IMG/VR virus record: IMGVR_UViG_3300040960_000278
Span: 1 to 37,984 of that record
DNA: 37,984 nucleotides
Strand: one strand, 5' to 3'
Origin: a virus
Part shown: piece after piece, positions 4,719-36,228 of the stretch
How positions within the stretch are numbered: position 1 is the first letter of the stretch
Layout: every line of letters starts with the position of its first letter
Made by a program: the position numbers and the translations under genes
Notes under the pieces: generated by a model
What the model saw: only the letters and a program-made list of their open reading frames with translations
Database searches by the model: none
What the model was told of the DNA's origin: nothing

Positions 4719-4747
4719 ATTATATCATAAGATTTAGTGTGTGTCTA
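4719..4747 (-). promoter_or_regulatory. Sigma70-type promoter PE2 for the secreted protein/SSB segment
   Basis: Read on the minus strand: TAGACA (4747-4742), a 17-bp spacer, TATAAT (4724-4719), and a TGA extended -10 directly before it. The -35 lies in the last codons of the polymerase gene. The expected start site precedes the ribosome site of the exported-protein gene by about 20 bases. Confidence 0.75.
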
Positions 4748-8574: not shown

Positions 8575-8590
8575 TAACTCTATAGAGTTA
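8575..8590. promoter_or_regulatory. Perfect 16-bp palindrome over the PE1 start site (probable operator)
   Basis: TAACTCTATAGAGTTA is its own reverse complement. It begins at the last base of the PE1 -10 box and spans the expected transcription start, the classic place for a repressor site. A 7-bp inverted repeat (TTATTAC-TTA-GTAATAA, 8537-8553) lies in the leader below it. Ten of its bases (AACTCTATAG) recur just before the small terminase start at about 13266. Confidence 0.7.
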
Positions 8591-8618
8591 TTGTAGCACA
8601 TTTAATTCTCAAAGTCAA
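8590..8618 (-). promoter_or_regulatory. Sigma70-type promoter PE1 for the replication genes
   Basis: Minus strand: TTGACT (8618-8613), 17-bp spacer, TACAAT (8595-8590), with a TG at the extended -10 position (TGCTACAAT). Both boxes deviate by one base from consensus. It lies partly in the 3' end of the zinc-ribbon gene and drives the 92-aa gene, primase-helicase and polymerase. Its -10 context TGCTAYAATA is shared with the three late promoters. Confidence 0.85.
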
Positions 8619-8814
8619 CGTACCACTGATCATCATCAGCTACTTCATCCATGTTAGCTAGATCTTCGTTGTCTGCTAGGTCATAGTTATCTATGGTTGG
8701 TGTCTTAGTGTAGCTCAAGCATTTGTTACAGGTATCAAGATACTCACCTGTATCAGCGTGCTTTCGCGTTGCTTCAAAGTCACTCAGTAACACATCACAT
8801 ATAACACATCTCAT
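8602..8814 (-). CDS. Small zinc-ribbon protein, 70 aa
   Basis: Starts MRCVICDVLL with a CxxC pair (C3, C6) and a second CxxC (C29, C32, in TCNKC), spaced as a treble-clef/zinc-ribbon knuckle, then an acidic C-terminal half (NEDLANMDEVADDDQW). The start at 8814 forms an ATGA overlap with the upstream membrane microprotein. Zinc binding is inferred from the four cysteines; a transcription or replication accessory role is a guess. Confidence 0.72.
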   Translation of the reverse strand: MRCVICDVLLSDFEATRKHADTGEYLDTCNKCLSYTKTPTIDNYDLADNEDLANMDEVADDDQWYVDFEN

Positions 8815-9504: not shown

Positions 9505-9729
9505 TCAATCCTTATTCATGCTGTGCCAGTACTCATCCGGCAATGGTTCGTGTACGGATAGCTCTGGAATACCCTCTGAGACGCTCTGTGCTGCGCTCTG
9601 AGGCACGATCTCTGTCACTACCCAGTTAGGGTACATCATAGCCTTCGCCATGCCCTCTAAGAAGCTCCTATCGGGTGACTGTAAAGCCGCTTTATTTGTA
9701 CGGGTATCTACTAAGTAATAAGTTTTCAT
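9505..9729 (-). CDS. Hypothetical protein, 74 aa
   Basis: Begins MKTYYLVDTRTNKAALQSPD and ends LPDEYWHSMNKD. ATGA junction with the upstream HTH gene. The first half reads like a small alpha/beta fold, the second half is acidic and Ser/Pro-rich. No recognised family. Confidence 0.55.
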   Translation of the reverse strand: MKTYYLVDTRTNKAALQSPDRSFLEGMAKAMMYPNWVVTEIVPQSAAQSVSEGIPELSVHEPLPDEYWHSMNKD

Positions 9730-9908
9730 GCTGCTGTGTTCCTTCTGTGTTTAGCTAGTACTTTTTTAATCGTGGTTGTACCTACGTCAAACTTCTTGGC
9801 TAATGATGCTATGCTCAGTTGTTTGACTTGCTCATACAATTCGTTACGCTCTTCGTTTAATAGGATGATCATCTGAATATCAAATGGTGTTAGCTTTGGC
9901 TCACTCAT
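9726..9908 (-). CDS. Small helix-turn-helix DNA-binding protein, 60 aa
   Basis: Residues about 32-53 (SIASLAKKFDVGTTTIKKVL) form a helix-turn-helix of the resolvase/Hin or sigma-like type, preceded by a helical segment (LNEERNELYEQVKQL) and followed by a basic end (AKHRRNTAA). It is the only clear HTH protein I see in the leftward arm, so it is the first candidate to bind the dyad repeats in the control region or the palindrome at 8575-8590. That link is inference. ATGA junctions on both sides. Confidence 0.75.
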   Translation of the reverse strand: MSEPKLTPFDIQMIILLNEERNELYEQVKQLSIASLAKKFDVGTTTIKKVLAKHRRNTAA

Positions 9909-11903: not shown

Positions 11904-11946
11904 GATGATAATTCCTCTTTTGCTAATGTGTCAGGATTGACAAGGA

Positions 11947-12172
11947 TAACCACTCTTGCGAATGGTTAACCGTTTCAAACTGATACGCCACTATCAGGAG
12001 ATCCCGTAGCACCTACACTGGCAGGTTATGCTCTCACAATCTCAACATCATTGTATTACGCCGATGCTCCGACAGTATCCAGTGCCGTTCTGGTTGATCC
12101 TGTTTTCAAGTGTCTGATCAGTAGCCACTGCAATTAATTGTTTTTATTGATGGGTTAATTCGTCATCCCATC
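11947..12172 (-). other. Hairpin-rich block, possible structured leader of the early transcript
   Basis: At least six inverted repeats follow each other. They are 11947-11968 (on the minus strand a 9-bp stem TAACCATTC/GAGTGGTTA, with one G-U, capped by GCAA), 11980-11997 (CTGATA/TATCAG), and 12008-12032 (AGCA-CCT/AGG-TGCT). The rest are 12072-12103 (ACAG-CCAG/CTGG-CTGT), 12119-12130 (CAGT/ACTG) and 12149-12172 (GATGGG/CCCATC). The stem at 11947 is perfect only when read on the minus strand, and its loop is then a GNRA tetraloop, so the leftward RNA is the likely structured molecule. No known RNA family recognised. Confidence 0.45.
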
Positions 12173-12267
12173 CGAGTATTGGCGCGCTCTCAATCGCTTC
12201 TCATGTGGTGTACTTTAGTCGCTTGGTCACCAATGTCTATTAAAAGTTTTTTATAGATACCATAAGA

Positions 12268-12295
12268 ATTATTTATATATACCTATATTAGTCAC
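12268..12295 (-). promoter_or_regulatory. Weak candidate leftward early promoter
   Basis: Minus strand: GTGACT (12295-12290), 16-bp spacer, AATAAT (12273-12268), in a very AT-rich stretch. It lies upstream of the hairpin block and the first leftward gene. Match to consensus is modest (4/6 and 5/6); I list it because some promoter must exist here and I see no better one. Confidence 0.3.
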
Positions 12296-12325
12296 CTCTA
12301 ATGGTTCGGATCCGAGACCTGTAAC

Positions 12326-12346
12326 AGTATATAAGCAAATACTAAT
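12326..12346 (+). repeat. 21-bp dyad repeat, copy 1
   Basis: Matches the consensus core ATATWAGCANNTNCTAAT. It is isolated from the other eight copies and lies to the left of the DnaA boxes, so the two sets flank the candidate origin. Confidence 0.8.
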
Positions 12347-12412
12347 ATACTATGTCTTGTATATAATGAGTACGCGTAGCAATTATCATGCCAACGTGTT
12401 CTGGCCAGCGTT

Positions 12413-12465
12413 TCATCCACAGGTTACTAACAGGGTTATCCACAGAATTGGCATAGTTATCCACA
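12413..12465 (+). promoter_or_regulatory. Three phased DnaA boxes
   Basis: Two perfect boxes TTATCCACA at 12436-12444 and 12457-12465 and one near match TCATCCACA at 12413-12421, all in the same orientation. Start-to-start distances are 23 and 21 bp, close to two helical turns. Host DnaA binding here is the direct reading. Confidence 0.8.
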
Positions 12466-12473
12466 TAGCTAGG

Positions 12474-12564
12474 AGGCTCTGTAAGGCTCTCTAAGGCATT
12501 TTTGGATTTTAGATACCCTGCTATCAAGTACCCCTAAAACGGCATAGAGGCTCTCAGAGGCTCT
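12474..12564 (+). repeat. Helically phased AGGCTCT repeats
   Basis: AGGCTCT occurs at 12474, 12484, 12548 and 12558: two pairs each spaced exactly 10 bp. A shortened AGGC at 12494 continues the first 10-bp series. All lie on one face of the helix next to the DnaA boxes, suggesting a protein-binding array. Confidence 0.7.
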
Positions 12565-12604
12565 CACAGGTATAGAGAACAAATAGAGAACTTAGGCCGA
12601 TTGC

Positions 12605-12633
12605 TTGACATTCTGGCCAGAGTATGCTATGGG
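12605..12633 (+). promoter_or_regulatory. Degenerate copy of the late promoter with a palindrome in its spacer
   Basis: TTGACA (12605-12610), a 17-bp spacer ending AGTATGC exactly as in the three late promoters, then TATGGG where TATAAT is expected. The spacer contains TCTGGCCAGA. Either a dead promoter or one that needs an activator bound to the nearby repeats. Confidence 0.4.
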
Positions 12634-12684
12634 TCATATCAGTATATTAGCAAGTACTAATGTATGGGATTCTGGCCAGAGTAT
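12610..12684 (+). repeat. Repeated TCTGGCCAGA palindrome
   Basis: The 16-bp segment ATTCTGGCCAGAGTAT occurs at 12610 and 12669, and a 9/10 copy of the palindrome at 12400-12408. TCTGGCCAGA is a perfect 10-bp palindrome. Copies alternate with the dyad repeats. Confidence 0.7.
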
Positions 12685-12911
12685 TAGCATATTAGCAAGT
12701 ACTAATGCGACTAGGATATAAGTATATTAGCAAGTACTGATGGAGATCTGTATAAGTATATTAGGATATGCTAAATAGCTACTACACCGACACACACATT
12801 AGTACTTCAGAATATAAGCACATACTAATACAGTACTTTAGAATATAAGCAGATTCTAATGCGCCTCCTCCATTAGCATATTAGCATATAACAATATAAG
12901 CAGATTCTAAT
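12641..12911 (+). repeat. Array of eight 21-bp dyad repeats (iterons/operators)
   Basis: Copies start at 12641, 12686, 12721, 12755, 12809, 12840, 12875 (degenerate) and 12891. Consensus AG then NATATWAGCANNTNCTAAT, built around the dyad TTAG-N6-CTAA. An inverted half copy is at 12796-12810. Spacing is irregular (31-54 bp, two copies overlap), unlike a CRISPR. The half-site CAAGTACTAA recurs inverted as TTAGTACTTG across the -35 of late promoter PL1, so one protein could bind both the array and that promoter. Confidence 0.85.
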
Positions 12912-12924
12912 GCGTTCCTAAGGC

Positions 12925-12959
12925 GGGTTCGCTACAGGGGACGGGGGAGGGGGCGGCGG
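12925..12959 (+). other. G-run cluster with quadruplex potential
   Basis: Runs of 3, 4, 5 and 5 G (12925-12927, 12937-12940, 12943-12947, 12949-12953) followed by GG-C-GG-C-GG type sequence, on the plus strand only. The first loop is 9 bases, the others 2 and 1. It stands out in an otherwise AT-rich region next to the last dyad repeat. Confidence 0.55.
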
Positions 12960-13090
12960 CTAATCAGAATTCTATAGTACCTACCTAGACACAAAAAAGA
13001 GCAAAATAGCAACTAGGTAATAAAAAAGAAACTGTACTGGTAACTATTTGTTTTCTTTATAGAAACTGCGGCGGCTCTGCGGAGTGTCAT

Positions 13091-13102
13091 GTCTCATGAG
13101 AC
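13091..13102. promoter_or_regulatory. 12-bp perfect palindrome upstream of PL1
   Basis: GTCTCATGAGAC equals its reverse complement and lies about 50 bp upstream of the PL1 -35 box. Placement suits an activator site; no partner is known. Confidence 0.45.
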
Positions 13103-13154
13103 CCGCCATAAAAGGTAACACAAACTGCACTGTTATCAATGGAGTATTTAGTAC

Positions 13155-13183
13155 TTGACTTTCTCTAAAAAGTATGCTATAAT
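13155..13183 (+). promoter_or_regulatory. Late promoter PL1
   Basis: TTGACT (13155-13160), 17-bp spacer ending AGTATGC, TATAAT (13178-13183), extended -10 TGC. The sequence AGTAT-GCTATA-ATATACT makes a dyad over the -10. It drives the packaging, lysozyme and portal genes. Shares spacing and 12 or more bases around the -10 with PL2 and PL3. Confidence 0.88.
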
Positions 13184-13276
13184 ATACTGAATAGAAACGT
13201 TAACAAACGTAGAATTATAATCTTAGTGTTATTTTTAATGTTAATCACTAAGTACCTAAAGAGAAAACTCTATAGT

Positions 13277-13669
13277 ATGGAAGAGCCTCAGACAACAAAG
13301 AAACGCGGAAGACCTAAGAAGGCTGATGTGTTATCAAAAACAAAAGGTAACAGAGTAGCACGTGGTCGTCCTAAAGGCGATGCAGCCATCATTAACGAAT
13401 ATAAAGCAAGGATGTTAGCATCTCCAAAGAGTGCTAAAGTTCTTGAGAAGATCTTTGATGCAGCGTTAGATGATGAACATAAACACCAAGCTGCTGCATG
13501 GAAAATAATTACTGATCGTGTTATCCCTACAGCAACCTTCGAGAAGGATGTTGTTAAAGGCGCAGGACGTAATGCTATACAGATTAACATCAGTGGCATC
13601 GGCGGTAGTGTGGATGTTTCTCCTACTGATGACGATGATATTATTGAGGCAGAGTACACTGATGAGTGA
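13277..13669 (+). CDS. Putative small terminase subunit with AT-hook-like motifs
   Basis: A 130-aa protein starting MEEPQTTKKRGRPKKADV. Two GRP motifs (RGRPKK at about 10-15 and RGRPKG at about 30-35) resemble AT-hooks that bind the minor groove. The middle is helical (INEYKARMLASPKSAKVLEK, then DEHKHQAAAWKIITDR) and the end is acidic (DDDDIIEAEYTDE). It is the first late gene, two genes before the large terminase, and proteins of this shape are usually annotated as terminase small subunit. The start is uncertain: no good ribosome site precedes the ATG at 13277, and in-frame starts exist at 13226 and 13238. Confidence 0.65.
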   Translation: MEEPQTTKKRGRPKKADVLSKTKGNRVARGRPKGDAAIINEYKARMLASPKSAKVLEKIFDAALDDEHKHQAAAWKIITDRVIPTATFEKDVVKGAGRNAIQINISGIGGSVDVSPTDDDDIIEAEYTDE

Positions 13670-14501
13670 AGATAGATTTGCACCCGCCCGTGGATTAATG
13701 GAGCTAGTAGGCGACAAAGAATCTAACGGTGATTACAACGTAGCCTACGGTGGCACTAAAGATAACTTCACTAACATGACTGTAGATGAAGTGCTGAAGT
13801 GGCAAGACGATTACGTTGATGCAGGTAGTCGCTCTAGTGCTGTTGGTAAATATCAAATTATTCGTAAAACGTTACGTGATTTAAAAAAGAAAATGAAACT
13901 CAAAGGAGATGAAGTATTTTCTCCTGAGATGCAAGATGCTATGTTTGTTCAATTATTACGCAAGCGTGGTTATGATAAATGGACTGAAGGTAAATTATCT
14001 GATGATGAGTTTGGTAATAACCTTGCAAAAGAATGGGCATCATTCCCTGTCCTAACAGACATAAAAGGAAGCAAGCGTAAGGTTAAAGCAGGTGAAACCT
14101 ATTACGCAGGTGATGGACTCAACAAAGCATTAATTTCTCCTGAACAAGTACGTAGTGCCTTAGTTTCATATCGTACACCTGATCCTTTAATAGAACGTCA
14201 AAAACAATACGAAAAAGATCTTGAAGAGGAAATGAAGTACGCTGAACTAGCAGGTGATTATGATCCTTTTGCTCATGATCCTTACTATGAACCTTATGGT
14301 CGTACTAATATGTACCGTGTAACTACACGTAATGGTGTTCCTGTTCAAGGTGCAATACCAGATCCTGATTGGCATGGTGATCGTAGAATGGCTGAGTCAT
14401 ATTATACTGACCGTCCTTTTGAAAGTTACCCTGAGCCTGAAGAAGATCCAGTAAGTACTGCACTTTCACAGTTGTATTGGCTAGATAAGAATATCAAATA
14501 G
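13662..14501 (+). CDS. Lysozyme-like glycosidase (lambda R-type lytic transglycosylase), probable endolysin
   Basis: A 279-aa protein. Residues about 8-140 align by eye with lambda R: ELVGDKESNGDYNVAYGG (candidate catalytic E20, lambda E19), SSAVGKYQIIRKTL, FSPEMQDAMFVQLLRKRG and NLAKEWASFPV. Lambda R cleaves peptidoglycan between MurNAc and GlcNAc. The C-terminal 120 residues (acidic, Tyr/Pro/Asp-rich: DYDPFAHDPYYEPYGRTNMY) match nothing I know. There is no signal peptide, so release would need a holin. It starts at 13662 with an 8-bp overlap with the upstream gene and ends one base into the terminase GTG. A virion-associated role is the alternative. Confidence 0.78.
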   Translation: MSEDRFAPARGLMELVGDKESNGDYNVAYGGTKDNFTNMTVDEVLKWQDDYVDAGSRSSAVGKYQIIRKTLRDLKKKMKLKGDEVFSPEMQDAMFVQLLRKRGYDKWTEGKLSDDEFGNNLAKEWASFPVLTDIKGSKRKVKAGETYYAGDGLNKALISPEQVRSALVSYRTPDPLIERQKQYEKDLEEEMKYAELAGDYDPFAHDPYYEPYGRTNMYRVTTRNGVPVQGAIPDPDWHGDRRMAESYYTDRPFESYPEPEEDPVSTALSQLYWLDKNIK

Positions 14502-15757
14502 TGGCAGATCTCAACGTTGAGTTACTCCCTTGGCAGCAGGAAGTATTCGCTGACAAGACAAGATTTAAAATCGTTGCAGCAGGAAGACGTACTGGTAAGT
14601 CTCGCTTAGCAGCATGGATGTTAATCATTAATGCGCTACAGACTGAACGTGGTCACGTTTTCTACGTAGCTCCTACGCAAGGACAGGCACGTGACATTAT
14701 GTGGTCAACGCTCATGGAGCTTGGTCATGAAGTCATCAAAAGTGCTCACATCAATAACTTACAGATAACTCTTGTTAATGGTGCTGTAATATCTCTTAAG
14801 GGTGCTGACCGTCCTGAGACAATGCGTGGTGTTAGTCTTCGCTTCTTAGTGTTAGACGAATACGCTGACATGAAACCCTCAGTATGGGAACAGATCTTAC
14901 GTCCTGCTTTAGCTGACCAGAAAGGCGATGCTATGTTTATTGGTACGCCTATGGGACGTAACCACTTCTACGATCTTTATCACTATGGTGAGTTAAGTGA
15001 CGATGACTCATACAAGTCTTGGCACTTTACTTCTTATGATAATCCTCTCCTTGATCCAGAAGAAATCGACACAGCTAAGAAGTCTATGTCTAGCTATGCG
15101 TTTAGACAAGAATTTATGGCTTCATTTGAAGCTGCAGGATCAGAAATATTTAAAGAAGAATGGATTCAGGTTGATAATGAAGAACCTGAAGATGGAGACT
15201 TCTACATCGCTGTTGACCTTGCAGGTTTTGCAGACATCGAGAAAGCAACCACTAAAAGTCAGAAACGTCTTGACCAAACCGCTATCTCAGTTGTTAAAGT
15301 AAATGAAGATGGTTGGTGGGTTGCTGAGATTATACACGGCAGGTGGGATATCAAAAAAACTGCTGAAAAAATATTTGAGGCTGTTGCTTGGTACGAACCC
15401 GTCTCAGTCGGAATAGAGAAAGGTGCATTGAAGAATGCAGTACTTCCTTATCTTACTGACTATATGAAAGCAAACAATAACTTCTTCCGAGTAGAAGAGT
15501 TAACACACGGTAACAAAAAGAAAGTAGATCGTATTGTGTGGGCGTTACAAGGACGCTTTGAACATGGTGCGATCTGGTTAAACGAAGGCGATTGGAATGC
15601 TGAGTTTCTTGATGAACTTTTCCAATTTCCTAACAACATGGTACACGATGACCTTGTAGACTCACTGGCGTATATTGATCAGTTAGCTAAAGTTTGTTAT
15701 GACTATGATTATGAACAAGATGACTTTGAATTCCTAGACGCTCACGCAGGATACTAA
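14501..15757 (+). CDS. Terminase large subunit
   Basis: A 418-aa packaging motor and nuclease. Walker A AGRRTGKS (27-34), Walker B LVLDE (116-120, D119-E120), coupling motif FIGTPMG (146-152), then an RNase H-like nuclease with D239 (IAVDLAG), E306 (VGIEKGAL) and D383/D384/D387 (VHDDLVDSL). It packages concatemeric DNA through the portal and cuts it. Start codon GTG at 14501 shares one base with the stop of the lysozyme gene (TAGTG). Length fits a compact podovirus terminase. Confidence 0.95.
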   Translation: MADLNVELLPWQQEVFADKTRFKIVAAGRRTGKSRLAAWMLIINALQTERGHVFYVAPTQGQARDIMWSTLMELGHEVIKSAHINNLQITLVNGAVISLKGADRPETMRGVSLRFLVLDEYADMKPSVWEQILRPALADQKGDAMFIGTPMGRNHFYDLYHYGELSDDDSYKSWHFTSYDNPLLDPEEIDTAKKSMSSYAFRQEFMASFEAAGSEIFKEEWIQVDNEEPEDGDFYIAVDLAGFADIEKATTKSQKRLDQTAISVVKVNEDGWWVAEIIHGRWDIKKTAEKIFEAVAWYEPVSVGIEKGALKNAVLPYLTDYMKANNNFFRVEELTHGNKKKVDRIVWALQGRFEHGAIWLNEGDWNAEFLDELFQFPNNMVHDDLVDSLAYIDQLAKVCYDYDYEQDDFEFLDAHAGY

Positions 15758-15758
15758 T

Positions 15759-17654
15759 ATGGAAGAATATAGCTTTGGTGAAATGACTGTAGAAGGTTGG
15801 ATCGCAGATAAATGTGACGGTTGGCGCGATCACTATGAATCTACATACGCTGAAGATCATGAAGAGTACTATCGCTTATGGCGTGGTATTTGGAACCCGA
15901 ATGACCGCTTACGTGACAGTGAACGTAGCAGACTTATTTCTCCTGCTTTGCAGCAAGCAGTTGAGTCTAGCGTTGCCGAAGTAGAAGAAGCTACGTTTGG
16001 TCGCGGCAAGTGGTTTGACATTAAAGACGATTTGCAAGATCAAAACAAAAATGATATTGCGATGGTACGTGCTCAGCTTGAAGAAGACATGAGCTTTGTT
16101 AAAGCACGCAAGAATATTGCAGAGTGTGTACTTAACGCTGCAGTATATGGTACTGGTATCGGTGAGATTGTTCTTGACGAAGTAAAAGAAATTCGTCCTG
16201 CAACACAACCAGTAATGGAAGGCGCAATGACTGCGGTTGGTGTTACTGAACAAGATCGTATGTTAGTTAAAATCCGTCCGATCTTACCTCAGAACTTCTT
16301 GATTGATCCTGTTGCAGTATCGATTGAAGAAGCACTCGGCGTAGCTATTGATGAGTTTGTACCGCTACATCAAGTACAAGCAGGTATTGATGCAGGTATT
16401 TACTTTGATGTAGATATTCAAATTGCTGCGCCCGATGAAGCAATTGAAGCAGATCAAGATCTTACTACTTATAACGAAGACAAAGTACGTTTGACTAAGT
16501 ACTATGGTAAAGTACCACGTGAATTACTAGAGTCAGATGACGAAGTTAAAGTAGAACTTGATACTAAAGATACCTATATAGAGGTAATTGCTGTTATTGC
16601 TAACGGTGATACCCTATTAAAACTAGAAGCTAACCCTTACATGATGCAAGATCGTCCTGTTGTTGCATTTCAATGGGACATCGTACCTTCTCGTTTTTGG
16701 GGACGTGGTATTTGTGAAAAAGGTTATAACTCTCAGAAAGCACTTGACACTGAGTTACGTGCTCGTATTGACAGCTTAGCACTGACAGTACACCCAATGA
16801 TGGCTGTTGATGCATCACGTCTACCACGTGGTGCTAAGATGGAGATCAAACCGGGTAAGACATTACTTACAAACGGCAATCCTTCTGAGATTTTGCAGCC
16901 ATTTAACTTTGGCCGCACTGATACTGTAACATTTGAGCAAGGTAGAGACCTTATGCAGATGGTACAAATGGCTACAGGTGCTATTGATACAGTAGGTATG
17001 CCGTCATTTGCAGGTAGTGAAGCTACTGCTGCAGGTATTTCTATGTCTCTTGGTGCTATCATCAAGCGTCATAAACGTACATTGATTAATTTCCATGAGA
17101 ATTTCCTCGTACCTTTTGTTACCAAAGCAGCACATCGTTATATGCAGTTTGCTCCTGAGTTATATCCTGCAAAAGACTTTAAGTTTACCGCAGCATCTAC
17201 TCTAGGTATTATTGCACGTGAGTATGAAGTAACACAATTAGTACAATTACTGCAAACTATGTCGCCTGAGTCACCAATGTATCCATTGTTGATTGAGTCA
17301 ATCGTAGATAACATGAATCTTTCTAATCGTGAGCAAATTATTCAGAAGATTCGTGAAGCTAATCAGCCTAATCCTGAAATGCAGCAGATGCAGATGGCTA
17401 AATTTGAGTCTGATATGGCGTTTCAACAGGCACAGACTGCAGCATTGCAAGGTCAAGCCGCAGAATCGCAAGCACGTACTCAAAAATACCGTATGGAAAC
17501 TGAAGCAATTCCTGAAGAGTTGGCAATTGAAGAACTATCTGCAGTGGCCAAAGCTACAGACTTGTTAGATGGTAAATCTGACGCTCTCAAACTAATGGAA
17601 CTACGTTTGAAGAAACAACAAATGGAATCTCAAGAACGAATGGCAGCAAATTAA
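15759..17654 (+). CDS. Portal (head-tail connector) protein
   Basis: A 631-aa protein right after the large terminase. It contains SERSRLISPALQQAVESSVAEVEEATFG near the N-terminus (shown in parts: SPALQQAVESSVAE), a FQWDIVPSRFWGRGICEKGY segment in the middle and an ATAAGISMSLGAIIKRHKRT helix, followed by a Gln/Met/Ala-rich coiled-coil C-terminus (MQQMQMAKFESDMAFQQAQ). This organisation fits podoviral portals of the marine T7-like group. It forms the dodecameric ring through which DNA enters and leaves. AGGATACTAAT precedes the ATG; its stop overlaps the next small gene (TAATG). Confidence 0.88.
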   Translation: MEEYSFGEMTVEGWIADKCDGWRDHYESTYAEDHEEYYRLWRGIWNPNDRLRDSERSRLISPALQQAVESSVAEVEEATFGRGKWFDIKDDLQDQNKNDIAMVRAQLEEDMSFVKARKNIAECVLNAAVYGTGIGEIVLDEVKEIRPATQPVMEGAMTAVGVTEQDRMLVKIRPILPQNFLIDPVAVSIEEALGVAIDEFVPLHQVQAGIDAGIYFDVDIQIAAPDEAIEADQDLTTYNEDKVRLTKYYGKVPRELLESDDEVKVELDTKDTYIEVIAVIANGDTLLKLEANPYMMQDRPVVAFQWDIVPSRFWGRGICEKGYNSQKALDTELRARIDSLALTVHPMMAVDASRLPRGAKMEIKPGKTLLTNGNPSEILQPFNFGRTDTVTFEQGRDLMQMVQMATGAIDTVGMPSFAGSEATAAGISMSLGAIIKRHKRTLINFHENFLVPFVTKAAHRYMQFAPELYPAKDFKFTAASTLGIIAREYEVTQLVQLLQTMSPESPMYPLLIESIVDNMNLSNREQIIQKIREANQPNPEMQQMQMAKFESDMAFQQAQTAALQGQAAESQARTQKYRMETEAIPEELAIEELSAVAKATDLLDGKSDALKLMELRLKKQQMESQERMAAN

Positions 17655-17785
17655 TGATTACACGTAAAGAATTAGAGGACGTTCTGACACAAGTAAACAC
17701 AATCCTTGAACGTATGGAACGTAGAATAGAAAAACTAGAAGAGTTGACTAAGAAACCTGTAGGGCGGCCAAAAAAAACCTCTTGA
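17654..17785 (+). CDS. 43-aa coiled-coil microprotein with AT-hook tail
   Basis: Starts MITRKELEDVLTQVNTILER, continues as a heptad-repeat helix (MERRIEKLEELTKK) and ends PVGRPKKTS. The GRPKK motif is AT-hook-like and also occurs in the putative small terminase. It starts at a TAATG overlap with the portal gene and its stop overlaps the PL2 -35 box. Function unknown; a small DNA-binding or packaging accessory is possible. Confidence 0.6.
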   Translation: MITRKELEDVLTQVNTILERMERRIEKLEELTKKPVGRPKKTS

Positions 17786-17810
17786 CTTTTACTAAATAGT
17801 ATGCTATAAT
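17782..17810 (+). promoter_or_regulatory. Late promoter PL2 (scaffold/capsid)
   Basis: TTGACT (17782-17787), 17-bp spacer ending AGTATGC, TATAAT (17805-17810), extended -10 TGC. Nearly identical to PL1 and PL3. Drives two small genes, scaffold and major capsid up to the terminator at 20089. Confidence 0.88.
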
Positions 17811-17828
17811 AATACTATCTTATAGCAT
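17801..17828. promoter_or_regulatory. 9-bp inverted repeat across the PL2 -10 and start site
   Basis: ATGCTATAA, 10-bp spacer, TTATAGCAT. The left arm contains most of the -10 box and the right arm lies beyond the expected start site. It could be an operator, or a hairpin in the first bases of the transcript. Confidence 0.5.
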
Positions 17829-17846
17829 AAACTCAGGAGAATGTCA

Positions 17847-18303: not shown

Positions 18304-19113
18304 ATGGCAGAGTTTTTGGATGTTAGTCCAGAAGAAGAACTGCAAGATGGCGAAGAACTAGCCACTCTTGAAGAAGAGAATACAACTGAGCAGGAACCTG
18401 AAGAGGAAACTCCTGAAGAAGTTGAAACTGAAGAAGAGGATGATCTACCTGAGAAATACAAAGGTAAATCAGCTAAGGATATTATCCGAATGCACCAAGA
18501 AGCTGAGAAGTTACTTGGCCGACAATCTTCTGAAGTAGGTGAGTTACGTAAACTTGTAGACAACTTTATTCAGACACAGACAGCGCAAGCCGCAAAGCCC
18601 AATGAGTCCGAAGAACAGATTGATTTCTTTGAGAATCCACAAGGTGCAGTTGAACAGCTAATCAACAATCACCCTAAGTTTAAGCAGACTGAAGATATTT
18701 CTAATCAGCTTAAGCAACAACAGACTATGAATCAGCTACAGACTAATCATCCTGATTATGTCGAAATTGTAGGTGATGATGAGTTTGCTAATTGGGTGAT
18801 GGGTTCTAAGGTTCGTCAAGAACTTTATAAACGTGCTGATAGTCAGTTTGATTATGACGCTGCTGATGAGCTTCTTACCACATGGAAAGAGCGCAAAAGT
18901 ATTGTCAAGCAAACTAAAGAGCATGAAGAGACAGCTAGAAAACAACAAGCTAAAGCAGCATCAACAGGTACTGCTAAAGGCTCTGGTGAAACTCCTAGAA
19001 AGAAGATCTATCGTAGGGCAGACATTATTAAGCTAATGCAAAATGACCCGCAACGATACCTAGATCTCGCTGATGAGATTACTCTAGCGTATAGTGAAGG
19101 TCGAGTTAAATAA
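18304..19113 (+). CDS. Capsid scaffold protein
   Basis: A 269-aa, very acidic protein. The first 55 residues are Glu/Asp-rich (SPEEELQDGEELATLEEE), followed by a KYKGKSAKDIIRMHQEAEKL motif typical of podoviral scaffolds, Gln-rich helices and a basic C-terminus (TPRKKIYRRADIIKLM) that would bind the capsid protein. It lies directly before the major capsid gene. GGAG stands 7 bases before the ATG. It guides procapsid assembly and leaves before DNA packaging. Confidence 0.87.
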   Translation: MAEFLDVSPEEELQDGEELATLEEENTTEQEPEEETPEEVETEEEDDLPEKYKGKSAKDIIRMHQEAEKLLGRQSSEVGELRKLVDNFIQTQTAQAAKPNESEEQIDFFENPQGAVEQLINNHPKFKQTEDISNQLKQQQTMNQLQTNHPDYVEIVGDDEFANWVMGSKVRQELYKRADSQFDYDAADELLTTWKERKSIVKQTKEHEETARKQQAKAASTGTAKGSGETPRKKIYRRADIIKLMQNDPQRYLDLADEITLAYSEGRVK

Positions 19114-19137
19114 CTTACACTATTGAGGTGATCTAAA

Positions 19138-20079
19138 ATGGCACTTGGTTCAAACCATGTTACTAATACCACAGCAGCAACTTTTATTCCAGAGCTGTGG
19201 TCTGACGAAATCGTAGCAGCATACAAGAAGAATCTTGTTCTTGCTAATCTTGTAAACAAAATGCCTATGAAAGGCAAGAAGGGTGATACTCTTCACATTC
19301 CTAAGCCTACTCGTGGCTCTGCTTCAGCTAAGGCAGCTTCTACTCAAGTAACTCTACAAGCAGCTACTGAGTCAGAAGTTACCGTAACTGTTAACAAGCA
19401 CTATGAGTACTCACGTCTGATTGAAGACATCACTGAAGTACAGGCTTTGGCATCATTGCGTAAGTTCTATACCGATGACGCAGGTTACGCTCTAGCTAAG
19501 CAAGTTGATGACGACTTGTTTACTTTGGCTAAATCTTTCGGTAACGGTGATGGTTCATCTTACGCTACTAACAATGCGTTCTACATTGACGGTACTAACG
19601 GTTTGTCTACCTATGCGGCTGACACTGTAACTACTGCAGACGTATTTACTGACGCAGGTTTCCGCGCTCTTATCCAAGAGTTGGATGACGCTGATGTTCC
19701 TATGGATGGCCGTTTCTTGGTTGTTCCACCATCAGCAGTTAACACCATTCGTGGTATTGATCGTTACGTGTCTTCTGACTTCGTATCTGGTCAGCCTGTA
19801 GTTAACGGTAAGATTGGTACTTTGTACGGTATTGACATCTTTGTTTCTACCAACTGCCCAGTTATTGAAACTGCAGCAGACAACAGTGCTTCTTCTGTTG
19901 ACACTCGCGGTGCTATCTTGGCACACAAAGATGCAATGGTACTTGCTGAGCAAATGGGCGTTCGTTCACAAACTCAGTACAAGCAAGAGTACCTTGCTAA
20001 CTTGTTCACCTCAGATATGCTCTACGGCACAGCAGTGATCCGTCCAGAGTCAGGTCTGTTGGTAGCAATGCCAGACTAA
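19138..20079 (+). CDS. Major capsid protein
   Basis: A 313-aa protein between scaffold and a terminator, the position and size of a podoviral HK97-fold coat protein. It begins MALGSNHVTNTTAATFIPEL and has the family features FIPELWSDEIVAAYKKNLVL, a GDTLHIPKPT segment, the HYEYSRLIEDITEVQA strand/helix and a late LYGIDIFVSTNCP. GAGGTGATCTAAA is a strong ribosome site and promoter PL2 is specific to this short segment, as expected for the most abundant protein. Confidence 0.93.
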   Translation: MALGSNHVTNTTAATFIPELWSDEIVAAYKKNLVLANLVNKMPMKGKKGDTLHIPKPTRGSASAKAASTQVTLQAATESEVTVTVNKHYEYSRLIEDITEVQALASLRKFYTDDAGYALAKQVDDDLFTLAKSFGNGDGSSYATNNAFYIDGTNGLSTYAADTVTTADVFTDAGFRALIQELDDADVPMDGRFLVVPPSAVNTIRGIDRYVSSDFVSGQPVVNGKIGTLYGIDIFVSTNCPVIETAADNSASSVDTRGAILAHKDAMVLAEQMGVRSQTQYKQEYLANLFTSDMLYGTAVIRPESGLLVAMPD

Positions 20080-24518: not shown

Positions 24519-24898
24519 TGGCACATTTTGCAGAAATTGATGAAAACAATGTTGTATTGCGTGTTCTTGTAGTCGCTGACGAAAACACCGCAGACGAAAA
24601 CGGTAACGAAGTTGAAGCTGTTGGCGTAGCGTACCTCAAAGGCTTGTTTGGCGAAGATACAAACTGGGTGCAAACTTCGTACAATAGAAACATGAGAGGT
24701 ATTTTTGCAAGCGTAGGCGGTACTTACGAAGCAGATACCGATGTTTTTATCCCCGAAAAGCCTTACCCTTCATGGGTGTATAATTACGAAGGAAAACATT
24801 GGGAAGCTCCGGTTGCTTTAGAAGGTTTTCCTTTGGACTACGAATGGAACGAAGAAACATTATCTTGGGATTTTACAGGGACTGTAGATGAAGACTGA
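24518..24898 (+). CDS. Conserved marine-phage protein, 126 aa
   Basis: Starts MAHFAEIDENNVVLRVLVV and has NWVQTSYNRNMRGIFASVG, FIPEKPYPSWVYNYE and YEWNEETLSWDF. I recognise this set from a protein common in cyanophages and other marine viruses, usually in the tail-fibre neighbourhood; its function is unknown. The start overlaps the adhesin stop by one base (TAATG). Likely a structural or fibre-associated protein. Confidence 0.8.
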   Translation: MAHFAEIDENNVVLRVLVVADENTADENGNEVEAVGVAYLKGLFGEDTNWVQTSYNRNMRGIFASVGGTYEADTDVFIPEKPYPSWVYNYEGKHWEAPVALEGFPLDYEWNEETLSWDFTGTVDED

Positions 24899-25475
24899 AA
24901 TTAAAAACTTTGTAGCTGTGTTTGAAGATGCTTACAGCCCAGAATTTTGCGACAAATCGATGGTCTATATGGATCAAATGATTGAGCAAGGTTTTGGAAG
25001 AACTCGACAAGAACACGACAAGGTTGATAAATCAGTAAAACAAGACACTGCTATTTTTCCCACCGAAGAGCAGTTAGTTGACATGAAAGGTACTAGAGAA
25101 ATTCATAAGGAATTTATGGATGTCTTTTGGAACGACCTCTACCCTATCTACGCTGAAGAGTTTGATGTTTTAAAGGTATCTGGCGAGCATAAGATTTATA
25201 CTACAAAGATGCAAAGAACTCCTGTTGGCGGTGGGTATCATGTGTGGCACTGTGAAAACAACGACAAAGAACACGCTGATCGTGTAATGTCTTTTGTTCT
25301 TTATCTTAACGATATTGAAGAAGGCGGTGAAACAGAATTTCTTTACCAACACATGAGAGTAAAACCTAAGAAAGGTACGTTAGTTTTATTTCCTGCTGCT
25401 TTTACTCACGTTCATCGTGGTAATCCTCCTTTAACAAACACTAAATATATTATTACTGGATGGCTTGAGTTTTAA
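24888..25475 (+). CDS. 2OG-Fe(II) oxygenase (prolyl-4-hydroxylase type)
   Basis: A 195-aa protein with the double-stranded beta-helix motifs of 2-oxoglutarate/iron dioxygenases: YHVWHCEN (H121, E123), YLNDIEEGGETEF, and LVLFPAAFTHVHRGNPP (H174 or H176), then KYIITGWLEF where K186 would hold 2-oxoglutarate. The first metal pair reads H-x-E instead of the common H-x-D. In the family it hydroxylates proteins or other substrates. Its place between tail adhesin genes and membrane proteins suggests modification of a tail protein or a host target; that is inference. It overlaps the previous gene by 11 bp. Confidence 0.88.
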   Translation: MKTEIKNFVAVFEDAYSPEFCDKSMVYMDQMIEQGFGRTRQEHDKVDKSVKQDTAIFPTEEQLVDMKGTREIHKEFMDVFWNDLYPIYAEEFDVLKVSGEHKIYTTKMQRTPVGGGYHVWHCENNDKEHADRVMSFVLYLNDIEEGGETEFLYQHMRVKPKKGTLVLFPAAFTHVHRGNPPLTNTKYIITGWLEF

Positions 25476-28207: not shown

Positions 28208-28231
28208 TTAACATAAAGCCAAGGATGGCTA

Positions 28232-28260
28232 TTGACTTTCTTAAAAAAGTATGCTATAAT
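28232..28260 (+). promoter_or_regulatory. Late promoter PL3 (tail and internal virion genes)
   Basis: TTGACT (28232-28237), 17-bp spacer ending AGTATGC, TATAAT (28255-28260), extended -10 TGC. It is the third copy of the PL1/PL2 sequence, in the 77-bp gap before the tail tube gene. The arms AGTA and TACT flank the -10. Confidence 0.88.
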
Positions 28261-28284: not shown

Positions 28285-28929
28285 ATGACATATTTACAAA
28301 TTGTTAACAATGTACTTAAACGTTTGAGAGAACGTGAAGTCTCTACAGTTAACGAAAACGCATACTCAGCACTTATTGGTATTTTTGTTAATGATGCTAA
28401 GACTGAGATTCAGCACGCTTGGTCTTGGTCTGCAGATCGTACAACATTAACTGCAGCGACTACAGCTAACTTGTATTCGTATTCGTTGACAGGTGCGGAT
28501 AGTAATTTCCAAATGTTAAACGTATACAACGATACTAACAATTGGTTTTTAGAGTACATGGATGGAAACGAATTAACAGGTAAGATGTTGTCTGCTCCAC
28601 AAACAGGTGCGCCTATGTACTACAGCTACAACGGTGTAGATACTAATGGCGATACTATGGTAGATTTGTATCCTATTCCAGATGCTGCATACGATATTCG
28701 TTTTAATATGGTTAAACGTGCAGCAGATTTTAGCGCAGATACTGATGAAAGTTTCTTACCTACCCTTCCAATTATTATGCTTGCATATGCTAAAGCTGTT
28801 GAAGAACGTGGTGAAGATGCAGGTGTTGCATCGTCATCGGCATACGCTATAGCACAGAAACATTTATCAGACTACATTTCTCTTGATGCAGCTAAGCATC
28901 CTGAAGAACTTGAGTGGTATACAGCGTAA
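28285..28929 (+). CDS. Tail tubular protein A-like (T7 gp11, head-tail adaptor)
   Basis: A 214-aa protein starting MTYLQIVNNVLKRLREREVS, the typical gp11-like N-terminus, with VNDAKTEIQHAWSWSADRTT and a helical C-terminus (LPIIMLAYAKAVEERGED, AQKHLSDYISLD). It forms the ring between portal and nozzle. AGGACG precedes the ATG. Its stop overlaps the next gene (TAATG). Confidence 0.88.
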   Translation: MTYLQIVNNVLKRLREREVSTVNENAYSALIGIFVNDAKTEIQHAWSWSADRTTLTAATTANLYSYSLTGADSNFQMLNVYNDTNNWFLEYMDGNELTGKMLSAPQTGAPMYYSYNGVDTNGDTMVDLYPIPDAAYDIRFNMVKRAADFSADTDESFLPTLPIIMLAYAKAVEERGEDAGVASSSAYAIAQKHLSDYISLDAAKHPEELEWYTA

Positions 28930-30482
28930 TGGCTAAGCAGTTACTTACAGCTTCTATAGCAGCACCCGGATTTTATGGTTTAAATACTATGGATTCTGAG
29001 GTAACGCTTAATCAAGGCTTTGCACGTAACGCAGAGAATTGTATTATTGATGAAGGTGGACGCTTAGGTTCTCGCAATGGTTGGGCATATGTTGCTCAAA
29101 CTGCTACACCTGCAACGCCTGTTAATCTTAAGGGTATGCACCGTTTCTTAGACATTGACGGTACTGAATACTTTGGTGCTTGGTCTGATACTGCATTCTA
29201 TATTAAATCTGGTGGTAACTTAAATAGCGTTACATACACTAACACACCTGCAGTAAATACTTTAACAGATGGTAATTGGCAAGCAGCTACGCTTAATGAT
29301 GCAGCGTTTTTATTCCAACGTGGTTATGAGCCTATCTACTTTAACCCTACTACTGGTGTGTTAGACGATATTACTACACAGGGTAAAGGTACACCACCAC
29401 AGGCAAACACTGTACTGTCAGCTTACGGCCGTTTATGGGTAGCTGATACACCTACTAATAAAACTACTGTATACTGGTCAAACCTTCTTGATGGCGCTGA
29501 ATGGCGTTCAGGTACTGGTACTGTAGGTTCGCTAGATATCTCTAGTATTCTTGTATATGGTAACGATGAGATTGTAGGCTTAGGTGCTCACAATGGTTAC
29601 TTAATTATCTTCTGTAAGAATAATATTATTATCATGGGAGATACTGACAATCAAGATAAGTACGTAGATCCTGTTGATATGCAGTTGATTGAAGTAATAC
29701 ATGGTGTTGGTTGTATTGCTAGAGACTCTATTACTAATACTGGTACTGACATTATGTTCTTGTCAGAAGCAGGTGTACGTAGTCTTGGTCGTACCATTCA
29801 AGAGAAGTCACAACCAATGCGTGACGTTAGTATTAACGTACGTGATACGTTAGTAACTCAAGTCTCTCGCGTTGATAAAACTCAAATCAAAGCTGTATAC
29901 TCTGATCACTTTGCATTTTATTTATTAGCAATACCAGATGAAAACACTGTCTGGTGCTTTGATATGCGTGGTACGTTAGAGAATGGTGGCGCACGTGTTA
30001 CACGTTGGAATAACTTAGATCATTCATCATGGTTAGCGTTTGATGGTTCTATGTACATGACAAATACTCAAGGTATTGCAGAGTACAAAGGTTATCAAGA
30101 TAACGGTTCTAAGTATTCAATGCAATACTACACTAACTACTTTGATTTTGAAATGCCTAATATTATAAAGATAGTTAAAAATCTATCAGCTACTGTTATT
30201 GGTTCTACAGGTCAAAAGTTTGTAGCTAAAGTAGGTACAGACTACGAAGATATTTATACATCATACAACCTTACTGTAAAAGAAGGTACTCCTGCAGAGT
30301 ATAACGTAGACGAATACAATACTACTGCAGAGTACTCAGGCGGTATCCTTATCGATAACGTTCGTATTCCTACCGGAGGTTCTGGCTTTGTTATTCAACT
30401 TGGTTTCGAGTCTACCATCAACGGTGGCTTCTTAAACATTCAACAGATTGACCTGTATGTGAAACAGGGGAGAATTAATTAA
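28929..30482 (+). CDS. Tail tubular protein B-like (T7 gp12-type nozzle)
   Basis: A 517-aa protein starting MAKQLLTASIAAPGFYGLNT. It has QGFARNAENCIIDEGGRLGS near the N-terminus and RLWVADTPTNKTTVYWSN in the middle, features shared by podoviral nozzle and stabiliser proteins with a beta-propeller. A C-terminal part of strands and GGFLNIQQIDLYVKQG closes it. It forms the tail tip through which DNA leaves. Position directly after the gp11-like gene supports this. Confidence 0.87.
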   Translation: MAKQLLTASIAAPGFYGLNTMDSEVTLNQGFARNAENCIIDEGGRLGSRNGWAYVAQTATPATPVNLKGMHRFLDIDGTEYFGAWSDTAFYIKSGGNLNSVTYTNTPAVNTLTDGNWQAATLNDAAFLFQRGYEPIYFNPTTGVLDDITTQGKGTPPQANTVLSAYGRLWVADTPTNKTTVYWSNLLDGAEWRSGTGTVGSLDISSILVYGNDEIVGLGAHNGYLIIFCKNNIIIMGDTDNQDKYVDPVDMQLIEVIHGVGCIARDSITNTGTDIMFLSEAGVRSLGRTIQEKSQPMRDVSINVRDTLVTQVSRVDKTQIKAVYSDHFAFYLLAIPDENTVWCFDMRGTLENGGARVTRWNNLDHSSWLAFDGSMYMTNTQGIAEYKGYQDNGSKYSMQYYTNYFDFEMPNIIKIVKNLSATVIGSTGQKFVAKVGTDYEDIYTSYNLTVKEGTPAEYNVDEYNTTAEYSGGILIDNVRIPTGGSGFVIQLGFESTINGGFLNIQQIDLYVKQGRIN

Positions 30483-33205: not shown

Positions 33206-36205
33206 ATGGCTACAATTGCACAAGAATTGCAGGACACGCTCACACAGCCTGTAGACATCGCTGTGCCTGAGTCTGAGTCTGCCGCACCTCCTGCACCTGC
33301 AGAGCAAGAACTCACGTTACAGGACATTATAGGGTCTGAGACGCTAATGTCTTTAGGTGCTCAGGCAGGTGACGTAGTACGTGATGGCGAACTCATTCGT
33401 AACTTCTCTAGTCCAGAGGATGCTAAGCCACTCGGCAAGCGCATTACCGCACAAGAATTCCTACTAGATCCTAGCTTACGTCAGCGTGGTGCTGAGGTAG
33501 GTGATCGCATTGCTGAAGACGGTACGATTGAGAAGGCAGGTTACAACAGTGCTATCAATCAATTCCGCTACGGTTGGAATAAAGGTGAAGGCTTAGTTAA
33601 CATGACTTCAGATGTACTAGAAGCGGCTGCGCCTCTAGGTACGTTTGGTCAAACAACAGCAGAGCGTTATGGTGAAGAGTTTGATGCAGCTACATTTAAG
33701 CGCAGACTAGAACTCATCAACCAAGCAGAGCAGCGTGATATTGCTAAGTCAATGGGCTACAACTTTTTGTCTGAAATTAACCGCCGAGGTGGTGGTACAG
33801 CAGCGTCAGTTGTAGGTGAGATTACTGGTGAGCTTGCAGGCGGTGATATCTTGTTACCTGCTACCGTATTATCTAAGGGTGCTAAAGGTTTAGCTGCAGC
33901 AGGTGCTGCGTACGGTGGTACGTACAGTATGGGTAAAGACTTAACAGAAGGTAAGTCTATTGACCTTGAGAAAGCTACAGGCTACGCACTAGGTGGTGCT
34001 GCACTATCACAGTTATTTCCACTAGCAGGTAAAGGCATTAGCGCAGTAGGTAACAAACTTGCTACACGTGGTGCTAAAGCTGAGCTAGATAAGATTCAGA
34101 ATCAGATTAACAAGATGGCAGCAGAGGGTGAACCTACTGAAGCTATCAATACTGAGATTGCACGTCTTGGTAAGCGTATTCAAAATGTAGAGAACATGAC
34201 AGGCGGTAAGATTACTGTACCTGCATCTAAGTCTCAGGCTGAACAGCGCATTGCAGATACTATTGCACATGACAGTACACTAGGCAGACGTATCAGTAAA
34301 GAACTAGACAAGTATCTTGGTACATTATCAACCCGTATTCGTAAGTACTCTGAGCCTATCTTCGGACGATTGCGTAAGTTTGAAGCAGATAGTCACATTG
34401 CTACTCACAAGAATCTTAAAGAAGTAGATGGTTGGTCAGAAGGTATACTACGTTTACCTAAAGCAACACAACGTGCTATCGGTTTTCATTTATCTTCTGA
34501 GAACTTTAAAGCAGCTAAGGCATTGATGCCTGATGAGCTTGCTTCTATGTTTGATAACGCTGTAGTACCTACACTCAAGCGTCTTAAGGATCAGCTTAAA
34601 GCACAAGGCGATGAGTTTGTAGAGATTCAGAACTACTTCCCACGAATGGTTAAGGACATCAAAGGTCTTAAGCAAGCGATGGGTCAGTCAATGCGCTCTG
34701 AGCTAGAGGATGTGCTAGAAAAAATAGCTAAGTCACGTGGTATGAGCCGTGCTGATTTATCAGAGACTGAGGTAACACGTATCATGGAGCGTATGCTTCG
34801 TGGTTATAAACCTGTTATGAAGGGTAAGAAGCTACAGTATGAGAAGGCACGTACTGTATCACTAGACGATAACCTATATCGCTTCTACGAAGATCCTACT
34901 ACTGCGCTCAGCGATTACATTCGTAAGTCAGTACACGATATGGAGTCACGTAAATTCTTTGGTACTTCAAAGATTGTAGATGAGCAGGGTTTAAATCCTA
35001 ATGCTTCAATTGCTCAGCTTGCTAAAGATGAGATGAAAGATCTTACCTTGGATGAGCAAGATGAACTTATGGGTTTGTTAACAGCACGCTTTACAGGTGG
35101 TGAGCAAACTCCTAATCAGGTACTACGTTTCATTCGTAATACTGGCTACATGGGTACAATAGCTAATCCACTATCAGCAATGATTCAGCTTGGTGACCTT
35201 GCTGCGTCAGGTGCGTTGCATGGTTTAGTTAATACCATGAAGTCTATGTTTGGCCGTAACAATCCTTTGTTTGTTAAGCTAGATGACATTGGTATTGGTA
35301 ACATGATATCTGAAGAGTTATCTGATCCAATGAAATCATCACGTCTGCTACGTACATTGTTCAGACGTTCAGGCTTTACAATGGTGGATCGCTTCGCTAA
35401 AGAAACATCCATGAATGCTGCGCTTGCTAAGAACTATAAGTTAGCTAAGAGTGCAGGCGGTGAAGCAGCAATACGTAAGAAATGGCAGGGTACGTTTGGT
35501 AAAGAAACCGATGCATTGATTGCAGATCTTAAAGCAGATCGTATGTCTGATAACGTAAAGCTATTAGCATTCAACGAACTATCTGACTTGCAGCCTATCA
35601 CATTAATGGAGATGCCAGAGAAATATCTAACATCACCTAACGGCCGTATCTTTTATATGCTTAAGTCATTCATGCTCAAGCAGCTAGACGTAGCACGCCG
35701 TAATGTATTCCAAGAGTTTAAGACTAACCCTAAGAATGCAGTGAAGACTGCGGCAGCGTTGTGGGGATACTTAGCGATTGCTAACGGTAGTACTAGCATT
35801 GCACGTGACGTACTACTCAAGCGTGATATCAGTAATGAAGACTTTCCTGATCGTGCGATGTGGGCATTGCTAGGTGTATATGGTATTGATAAGTATACAG
35901 GCGAGCGTTACTTAGCTAATGGCCAAGTAAAGGATGCAGCAATTAATATGATCATGCCCGCTACGCCTATCTTCGATGCTATGTTTGGTGCTCTTGATAA
36001 GGGTATTGACATTGCAGCAGGGCGTAAAGATCTTGAGGATGTCAACCTTGGTAAGTTTGTGAAGCCAGTACCTATCGTAGGTAACATCTTCTATAACTGG
36101 TTCTTAGGTGGTGCTGAGCTTTGGAATGAAGATCGTATAAGTAAGACTAAGGATACAACTACTAAGGATATACTTAAGTCTGAATGGGACATCAAGACTA
36201 AATAA
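33206..36205 (+). CDS. Large internal virion / ejection protein (T7 gp16-like position)
   Basis: A 999-aa protein, the last late gene. N-terminal part Pro/Ala/Glu-rich (PESESAAPPAPAEQEL), then VGEITGELAGGDILLPATVL and several Gly/Ala hydrophobic stretches (GLAAAGAAYGGTYSMG; GTIANPLSAMIQLGDLAASG) that may cross membranes. Long charged helices follow, and GRIFYMLKSFMLKQLDVAR and IVGNIFYNWFLGGAEL lie near the end. It has no lytic transglycosylase motif of the gp16 N-terminus. The cell-wall enzyme of this phage is instead encoded at 13662-14501. Role: DNA ejection channel across the inner membrane, by position and size. Confidence 0.78.
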   Translation: MATIAQELQDTLTQPVDIAVPESESAAPPAPAEQELTLQDIIGSETLMSLGAQAGDVVRDGELIRNFSSPEDAKPLGKRITAQEFLLDPSLRQRGAEVGDRIAEDGTIEKAGYNSAINQFRYGWNKGEGLVNMTSDVLEAAAPLGTFGQTTAERYGEEFDAATFKRRLELINQAEQRDIAKSMGYNFLSEINRRGGGTAASVVGEITGELAGGDILLPATVLSKGAKGLAAAGAAYGGTYSMGKDLTEGKSIDLEKATGYALGGAALSQLFPLAGKGISAVGNKLATRGAKAELDKIQNQINKMAAEGEPTEAINTEIARLGKRIQNVENMTGGKITVPASKSQAEQRIADTIAHDSTLGRRISKELDKYLGTLSTRIRKYSEPIFGRLRKFEADSHIATHKNLKEVDGWSEGILRLPKATQRAIGFHLSSENFKAAKALMPDELASMFDNAVVPTLKRLKDQLKAQGDEFVEIQNYFPRMVKDIKGLKQAMGQSMRSELEDVLEKIAKSRGMSRADLSETEVTRIMERMLRGYKPVMKGKKLQYEKARTVSLDDNLYRFYEDPTTALSDYIRKSVHDMESRKFFGTSKIVDEQGLNPNASIAQLAKDEMKDLTLDEQDELMGLLTARFTGGEQTPNQVLRFIRNTGYMGTIANPLSAMIQLGDLAASGALHGLVNTMKSMFGRNNPLFVKLDDIGIGNMISEELSDPMKSSRLLRTLFRRSGFTMVDRFAKETSMNAALAKNYKLAKSAGGEAAIRKKWQGTFGKETDALIADLKADRMSDNVKLLAFNELSDLQPITLMEMPEKYLTSPNGRIFYMLKSFMLKQLDVARRNVFQEFKTNPKNAVKTAAALWGYLAIANGSTSIARDVLLKRDISNEDFPDRAMWALLGVYGIDKYTGERYLANGQVKDAAINMIMPATPIFDAMFGALDKGIDIAAGRKDLEDVNLGKFVKPVPIVGNIFYNWFLGGAELWNEDRISKTKDTTTKDILKSEWDIKTK

Positions 36206-36228
36206 AAAACGGGGGCGCAATGCCCCCG
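36204..36228 (-). terminator. Strong intrinsic terminator for leftward transcripts
   Basis: Stem CGGGGGC/GCCCCCG (7 bp plus a G-U) with a 3-5 base loop, followed on the minus strand by TTTTTT. It ends the nrd transcript and stops it from running antisense into the late genes. On the plus strand the stem has an A-run before it but no U-run after it, so late transcripts are less well stopped. Confidence 0.88.

Follow-up and report, generated by a model that had tools for sequence, protein, structure and literature searches.

Three conserved sites resembling host sigma70 promoters ahead of the virion genes of an uncultured phage group with no RNA polymerase gene detected

Gene Layout and the Divergent Intergenic Region

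The IMG/VR contig IMGVR_UViG_3300040960_000278, analysed here over its full 37,984 bases (the window), comes from a phage of an uncultured group known from metagenomes. Its first 127 bases are identical to its last 127, which fits an assembly that is complete and either circular or terminally redundant. An intergenic region at ~11.9–13.2 kb separates two divergent gene blocks. The leftward block encodes primase-helicase, DNA polymerase, exonuclease, endonuclease, and ribonucleotide reductase; the rightward block encodes terminase, portal, scaffold-like, capsid, fibre, tail, and internal virion proteins. The two units converge at a G+C-rich hairpin followed by a T run (36210..36228, - strand). 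On the + strand, the rightward block begins with a probable small terminase carrying an AT-hook-like motif (13226..13669; homologues in 125 loci), its role suggested by its position ahead of the terminase large subunit, TerL (14501..15757). The portal protein (15759..17654), the scaffold-like and major capsid proteins (18304..20079), and two tail/connector-like proteins (28285..30482) follow. A 2OG-Fe(II) oxygenase-family gene (24888–25475, + strand) sits inside the late block, and a 999-aa late protein without a family match (33206–36205, + strand) is, by position, probably an internal virion protein. A search at near-DNA level against cultured phages returned one short match, in the fibre, and the only matches of TerL and portal among cultured phages are distant ones. 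TerL matched four genome contigs (two at 73% and two at 36%–37% identity), all of them in metagenome bins, so these matches do not identify a host.

A DnaA-box array on the + strand of the intergenic region (12413..12465; TCATCCACA at 12413, TTATCCACA at 12436 and again at 12457) is a candidate replication origin. At least two perfect boxes (TTATCCACA) occur within 1 kb upstream of PL1, the first of the late sites described below, in 19 of 47 regions, compared with 0.4% of control windows. The boxes lie mostly 200–400 bp from PL1, at spacings near multiples of the helical turn (11, 19–23, 30–34, and 42–44 bp), and such arrays suggest a host-DnaA-dependent origin in phages that have their own replication proteins. 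Also present (12277–12912) are roughly ten 27-nt repeats, imperfect and resembling ATATTAGCAAGTACTAATG, and three palindromes of the TCTGGCCAGA type; the cores of these elements are rare in relatives.

Two promoter-like sites on the - strand precede early genes. PE1 (8590..8618), upstream of the primase-helicase, reads TTGACT-17-TACAAT from 8618 to 8590 with TGC preceding the -10 box, and so bears out the resemblance to the late sites remarked on in a preliminary description of this sequence. Its counterpart scores ≥15 in 4 of 24 relatives' regions, on the weight matrix introduced below. The second early site, TAGACA-17-TATAAT (4719..4747), lies ahead of the ssDNA-binding-like and exonuclease genes. 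In its counterparts in four relatives (G004, G008, L132, and L171) the spacer is an inverted repeat, ACACACATTAAT..TGTGTGT (ACACAC/GTGTGT), a possible operator. No strong sigma70-like promoter for the leftward early genes was found on the - strand of 11904–13150, where the best candidate is CTGACA-18-TATCAT. A further + strand promoter-like site, the fourth, lies within the intergenic region (12605–12633) and reads TTGACA-17-TATGGG, with AGTATGC preceding the -10 position.

Three Late Sites and Their Conservation

The sequence TTGACT-N17-TATAAT occurs exactly three times in the window, as had been described, against a mean of 0.01 in shuffled sequence (none of 100 shuffles reached three). All three copies, PL1 (13155..13183), PL2 (17782..17810), and PL3 (28232..28260), are on the + strand; each has AGTATGC preceding the -10 box and an A just past it, and their scores far exceed those of all remaining + strand sites. 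PL1 lies upstream of the small terminase, a lysozyme-like gene, TerL, and portal. PL2 lies between the portal and the scaffold and capsid genes, which it would serve, and a 43-codon AT-hook-like ORF (17655–17786) has its stop codon overlapping the -35 box of this site. PL3 is placed 25 bases ahead of the tail gene at 28285 and would serve the two tail/connector-like genes. The proposal that each site opens one functional module holds in outline, with small terminase, lysozyme-like gene, TerL, and portal after PL1; small genes, scaffold, capsid, fibre, and lysis after PL2; and tail and internal virion proteins after PL3. No convincing + strand terminator was found between the modules, and PL1–PL3 thus probably feed one overlapping late unit. 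The label "late" is inferred from gene content, and promoter activity itself is likewise an inference.

Two structures lie at or beside these sites. A perfect 10-bp inverted repeat at PL2 (TATGCTATAA/TTATAGCATA, 17800–17829) creates a mirror-image promoter-like site on the - strand (17847–17819, score 16.9), which is also present in one relative (L005). A short hairpin, AGCC-AAGGAT-GGCT, stands immediately before PL3 (28217–28230); a close relative (L208) has the same hairpin as TGCC-AAGGAA-GGCA, a compensatory change.

Relatives were fetched by their TerL and tail proteins, so the motif had no part in their selection. The terminase query matched at least 599 contigs, and nearly all relatives have a TTGAC[A/T]-17-TATAAT-like site upstream of terminase. 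A weight matrix was trained on the relatives' PL1 sites and then applied to the other positions with a cut-off score of ≥15. An orthologous site reached this cut-off before the small terminase (PL1) in 70 of 84 regions, a figure that is not independent of the training. For the two positions on which the matrix had not been trained, the counts were 59 of 65 relatives between portal and scaffold (PL2) and 31 of 46 ahead of the tail gene (PL3). The same score was reached by 3.9% of random 450-bp regions drawn from the same sequences, real promoters included. In near-complete relatives the order of the sites is that of the window. Occupation of the same three positions in dozens of relatives indicates that PL1–PL3 are real, and they are best explained as strong host-type promoters that selection would hold at three positions.

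Aligning 96 nonredundant late sites gives the consensus A.AWA...C-TTGAC[A/T]TTT....AAAA.TRTGC-TATAAT-A. Constraint falls first on A-rich sequence between about -45 and -40 and on C-36; it then covers TTGAC with A or T at -30, the T-rich bases -29 to -27, A-rich bases ahead of the extended -10, TRTGn itself, TATAAT, and the A that follows; core positions in this set were partly selected by the matrix, the flanks were not. The count of 17-bp spacers was likewise shaped by the ungapped matrix, and a few relatives have 18 bp. Every strongly constrained element either is a standard sigma70 element or adjoins one, and nearly all of the consensus can be read as standard sigma-70 architecture. PL1–PL3 have TTGACA-like -35 and TATAAT-like -10 boxes within the 16–18 bp separation of sigma70 promoters, and each carries a TGn extended -10; the AGTATGC of the window is for the most part a case of the general TRTGn form of this element. 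An A-rich proximal UP region is part of the clade consensus and, within the window, is strongest at PL2. In Escherichia coli promoters the proximal UP element lies at -45 to -37, and a 17-bp spacer is both the commonest and the most active (PMC2613000). All core elements and the 17-bp spacer are shared with strong sigma70 promoters in general that have an UP element and an extended -10; the clade adds constraint at -36 and -27 and occupies three fixed places in the genome.

Searches for a Phage Polymerase, Sigma Factor, or Regulator

The window has no recognisable T7-type RNA polymerase gene. A profile search for single-subunit polymerases agrees with the absence proposed earlier: PF00940 was silent in the window and in seven relatives (T7 control, 9.9e-110). 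T7 RNA polymerase found no match in the window by tblastn, nor does the window contain a DFDGD motif, and PHROGs named neither an RNA polymerase nor a sigma factor in the scanned ORFs (most ORFs, a few small ones left out). The 999-aa protein was considered as a hidden virion polymerase and set aside, having no PHROGs or convincing Pfam match and no relevant PDB sequence match. Its AlphaFold model is almost all helical and of low confidence (mean pLDDT 48.1), so that the model alone does not settle this question.

Relatives by replication genes that lack RNA polymerase are documented, namely cobaviruses (PMC6918029) and Zobellviridae (PMC9960094); the gene is also absent from pelagiphage Skadi-1 (PMC10504331). 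With Cobavirinae/Zobellviridae (P12053L, SIO1) the window shares a T7-like DNA polymerase and primase-helicase (~46% identity), early and late genes on opposite strands, and the combination that marks that group, T7-like replication genes with no RNA polymerase gene. P12053L differs in having no late-class site scoring ≥15 (best 13.4), and cobaviruses are not among the 12 portal matches listed. HMO-2011-type phages (HTVC115P) provide the closest cultured primase-helicase (54%) and a portal 23%–27% identical to those of the group, but HTVC115P has a single site scoring ≥20, within coding sequence, and a genome of 54 kb against 38 kb. phiEco32-type phages also lack their own RNA polymerase and have two gene blocks on opposite strands; they differ in using a phage sigma factor (PMC9960094, PMC8948821), the trait that defines the type, and PHROGs found none in the scanned ORFs of the window. 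T7-like Autographiviridae have related replication genes and gene blocks, whereas the window is without T7-type promoters and without the single-subunit RNA polymerase that characterizes that family.

Among the early small proteins of the window, most lack relatives in our set. The exception is a CxxC...CxxC protein (8602..8814, - strand), kept across the clade (in seven relatives' genomes and 51 further loci) and the sole candidate found for an early regulator. It is predicted, with moderate confidence, to adopt a small zinc-finger-like fold; a fold search returned generic zinc-finger PDB matches alone, none at E ≤ 0.001, and its viral matches are uncharacterised proteins. A weak Pfam match to the sigma-G inhibitor Gin (E 0.027, one of 20 members) is a lead only. 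An HTH-like ORF (9726–9908, 60 aa) was rejected as a clade regulator, as it was not found in relatives.

Probable Host-Type Promoters and Competing Explanations

The use of host sigma70 polymerase, the first half of what the preliminary description proposed, is supported by the sigma70 type of the constrained elements and the lack of any phage RNA polymerase found. The evidence put forward for the second half, a phage-encoded regulator, does not bear it out. The exact 19-base core was found on 119 contigs, of which 47 (25 distinct sites) have no homologue of the window's proteins, so the core is not peculiar to a single phage regulator. The remaining 72 do encode such homologues (in 69, the CxxC protein or one involved in packaging or the virion), and the exact motif is nevertheless common in the clade. 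The spacers are nearly identical in the window's phage, but the clade as a whole does not follow this pattern (P = 0.18).

According to a rival explanation, which we regard as unlikely, a phage protein binds at ~-45 to -27, around the -35 box, and together with host sigma70 polymerase raises or times late transcription; the CxxC protein, kept clade-wide, would be the one candidate found. Conservation exceeds that of the 25 unrelated sites at A-42/A-40 (66/96 in the clade versus 5/25; Fisher P 1.8e-5), at C-36 (83/96 versus 10/25; P 6.3e-6), and at T-27 (81/96 versus 13/25; P 0.002), although this comparison is a rough one, the controls being just 25 and picked by the same exact core. PL1 and PL2 also covary: likeness within a genome exceeds that between genomes in the -10 box (z ~4.7), just upstream of the -35 box (z ~3.4), and in the first ten bases downstream, and is absent in the spacer. 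This could reflect a shared trans-acting factor, but it could also come from base composition, shared descent, or adaptation to different hosts, for all of which the statistics are uncorrected. Activator-dependent promoters usually have a weak -35 box, whereas both boxes here are near consensus; the A-rich part falls where the proximal UP element lies; and no fold or family match ties the CxxC protein to transcription. A composite site, in which the CxxC zinc-binding protein or another factor contacts ~-45 to -27 of a consensus sigma70 promoter, seems to us quite improbable; if true, it would allow late timing without a phage polymerase, a phage sigma factor, or a weak -35 box.

Far less credible is a regulator that binds the inverted AGTAT/ATACT arms spanning the -10 box. 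The arms are readable at PL1 (AGTAT-8-ATACT) and PL2 (AGTAT-9-ATACT), as described, but PL3 has only AGTA-11-TACT, and both arm length and spacing (8, 9, and 11 bases) vary. They are not conserved among the 96 orthologous sites, where the G of AGTAT is kept in 39% and the ATACT positions carry ≤0.35 bits of information content, and pairing between arms did not exceed shuffled pairing (P = 0.16). An argument for a regulator that rests on the arms therefore fails, and the conservation and pairing tests led us to reject the inverted-arm operator. Nor are the sites at all likely to be recent copies of one promoter inside this genome: PL1 and PL3 do agree at 87% of non-core positions (more than the 99th percentile for pairs from different genomes), but the flanks of the three sites are just 22%–43% identical and all three positions are occupied, with differing spacers, in relatives, which speaks against recent duplication.

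PL1–PL3 are thus probably clade-conserved, strong sigma70-type promoters read by host RNA polymerase, one for each block of virion genes. They would be alike because each is held near the same holoenzyme optimum, which would comprise A-rich sequence upstream, TTGAC[A/T], a spacer of exactly 17 bp, TRTGn, and TATAAT. Transcription would start at all three sites, read by host sigma70, and they would form a series of re-initiation points along the ~23-kb rightward unit, with timing set by copy number after replication, by the order of DNA entry, or by a phage factor. Some observations sit less easily with host-type promoters. Near-consensus promoters are expected to fire at once, which does not account for late timing; constraint at C-36, T-27, and A-42/-40 surpasses that of the unrelated same-core promoters; PL1 and PL2 covary; and the intergenic region yielded no promoter of comparable strength for the leftward early genes.

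This analysis yields a promoter map that can be put to the test in a large group of uncultured phages, which must borrow the RNA polymerase of their hosts, and the clade consensus offers a means of locating the group's virion genes. It also turns late timing in a podovirus without an RNA polymerase of its own into a concrete question, posed at three defined positions beside a likely DnaA-dependent origin.
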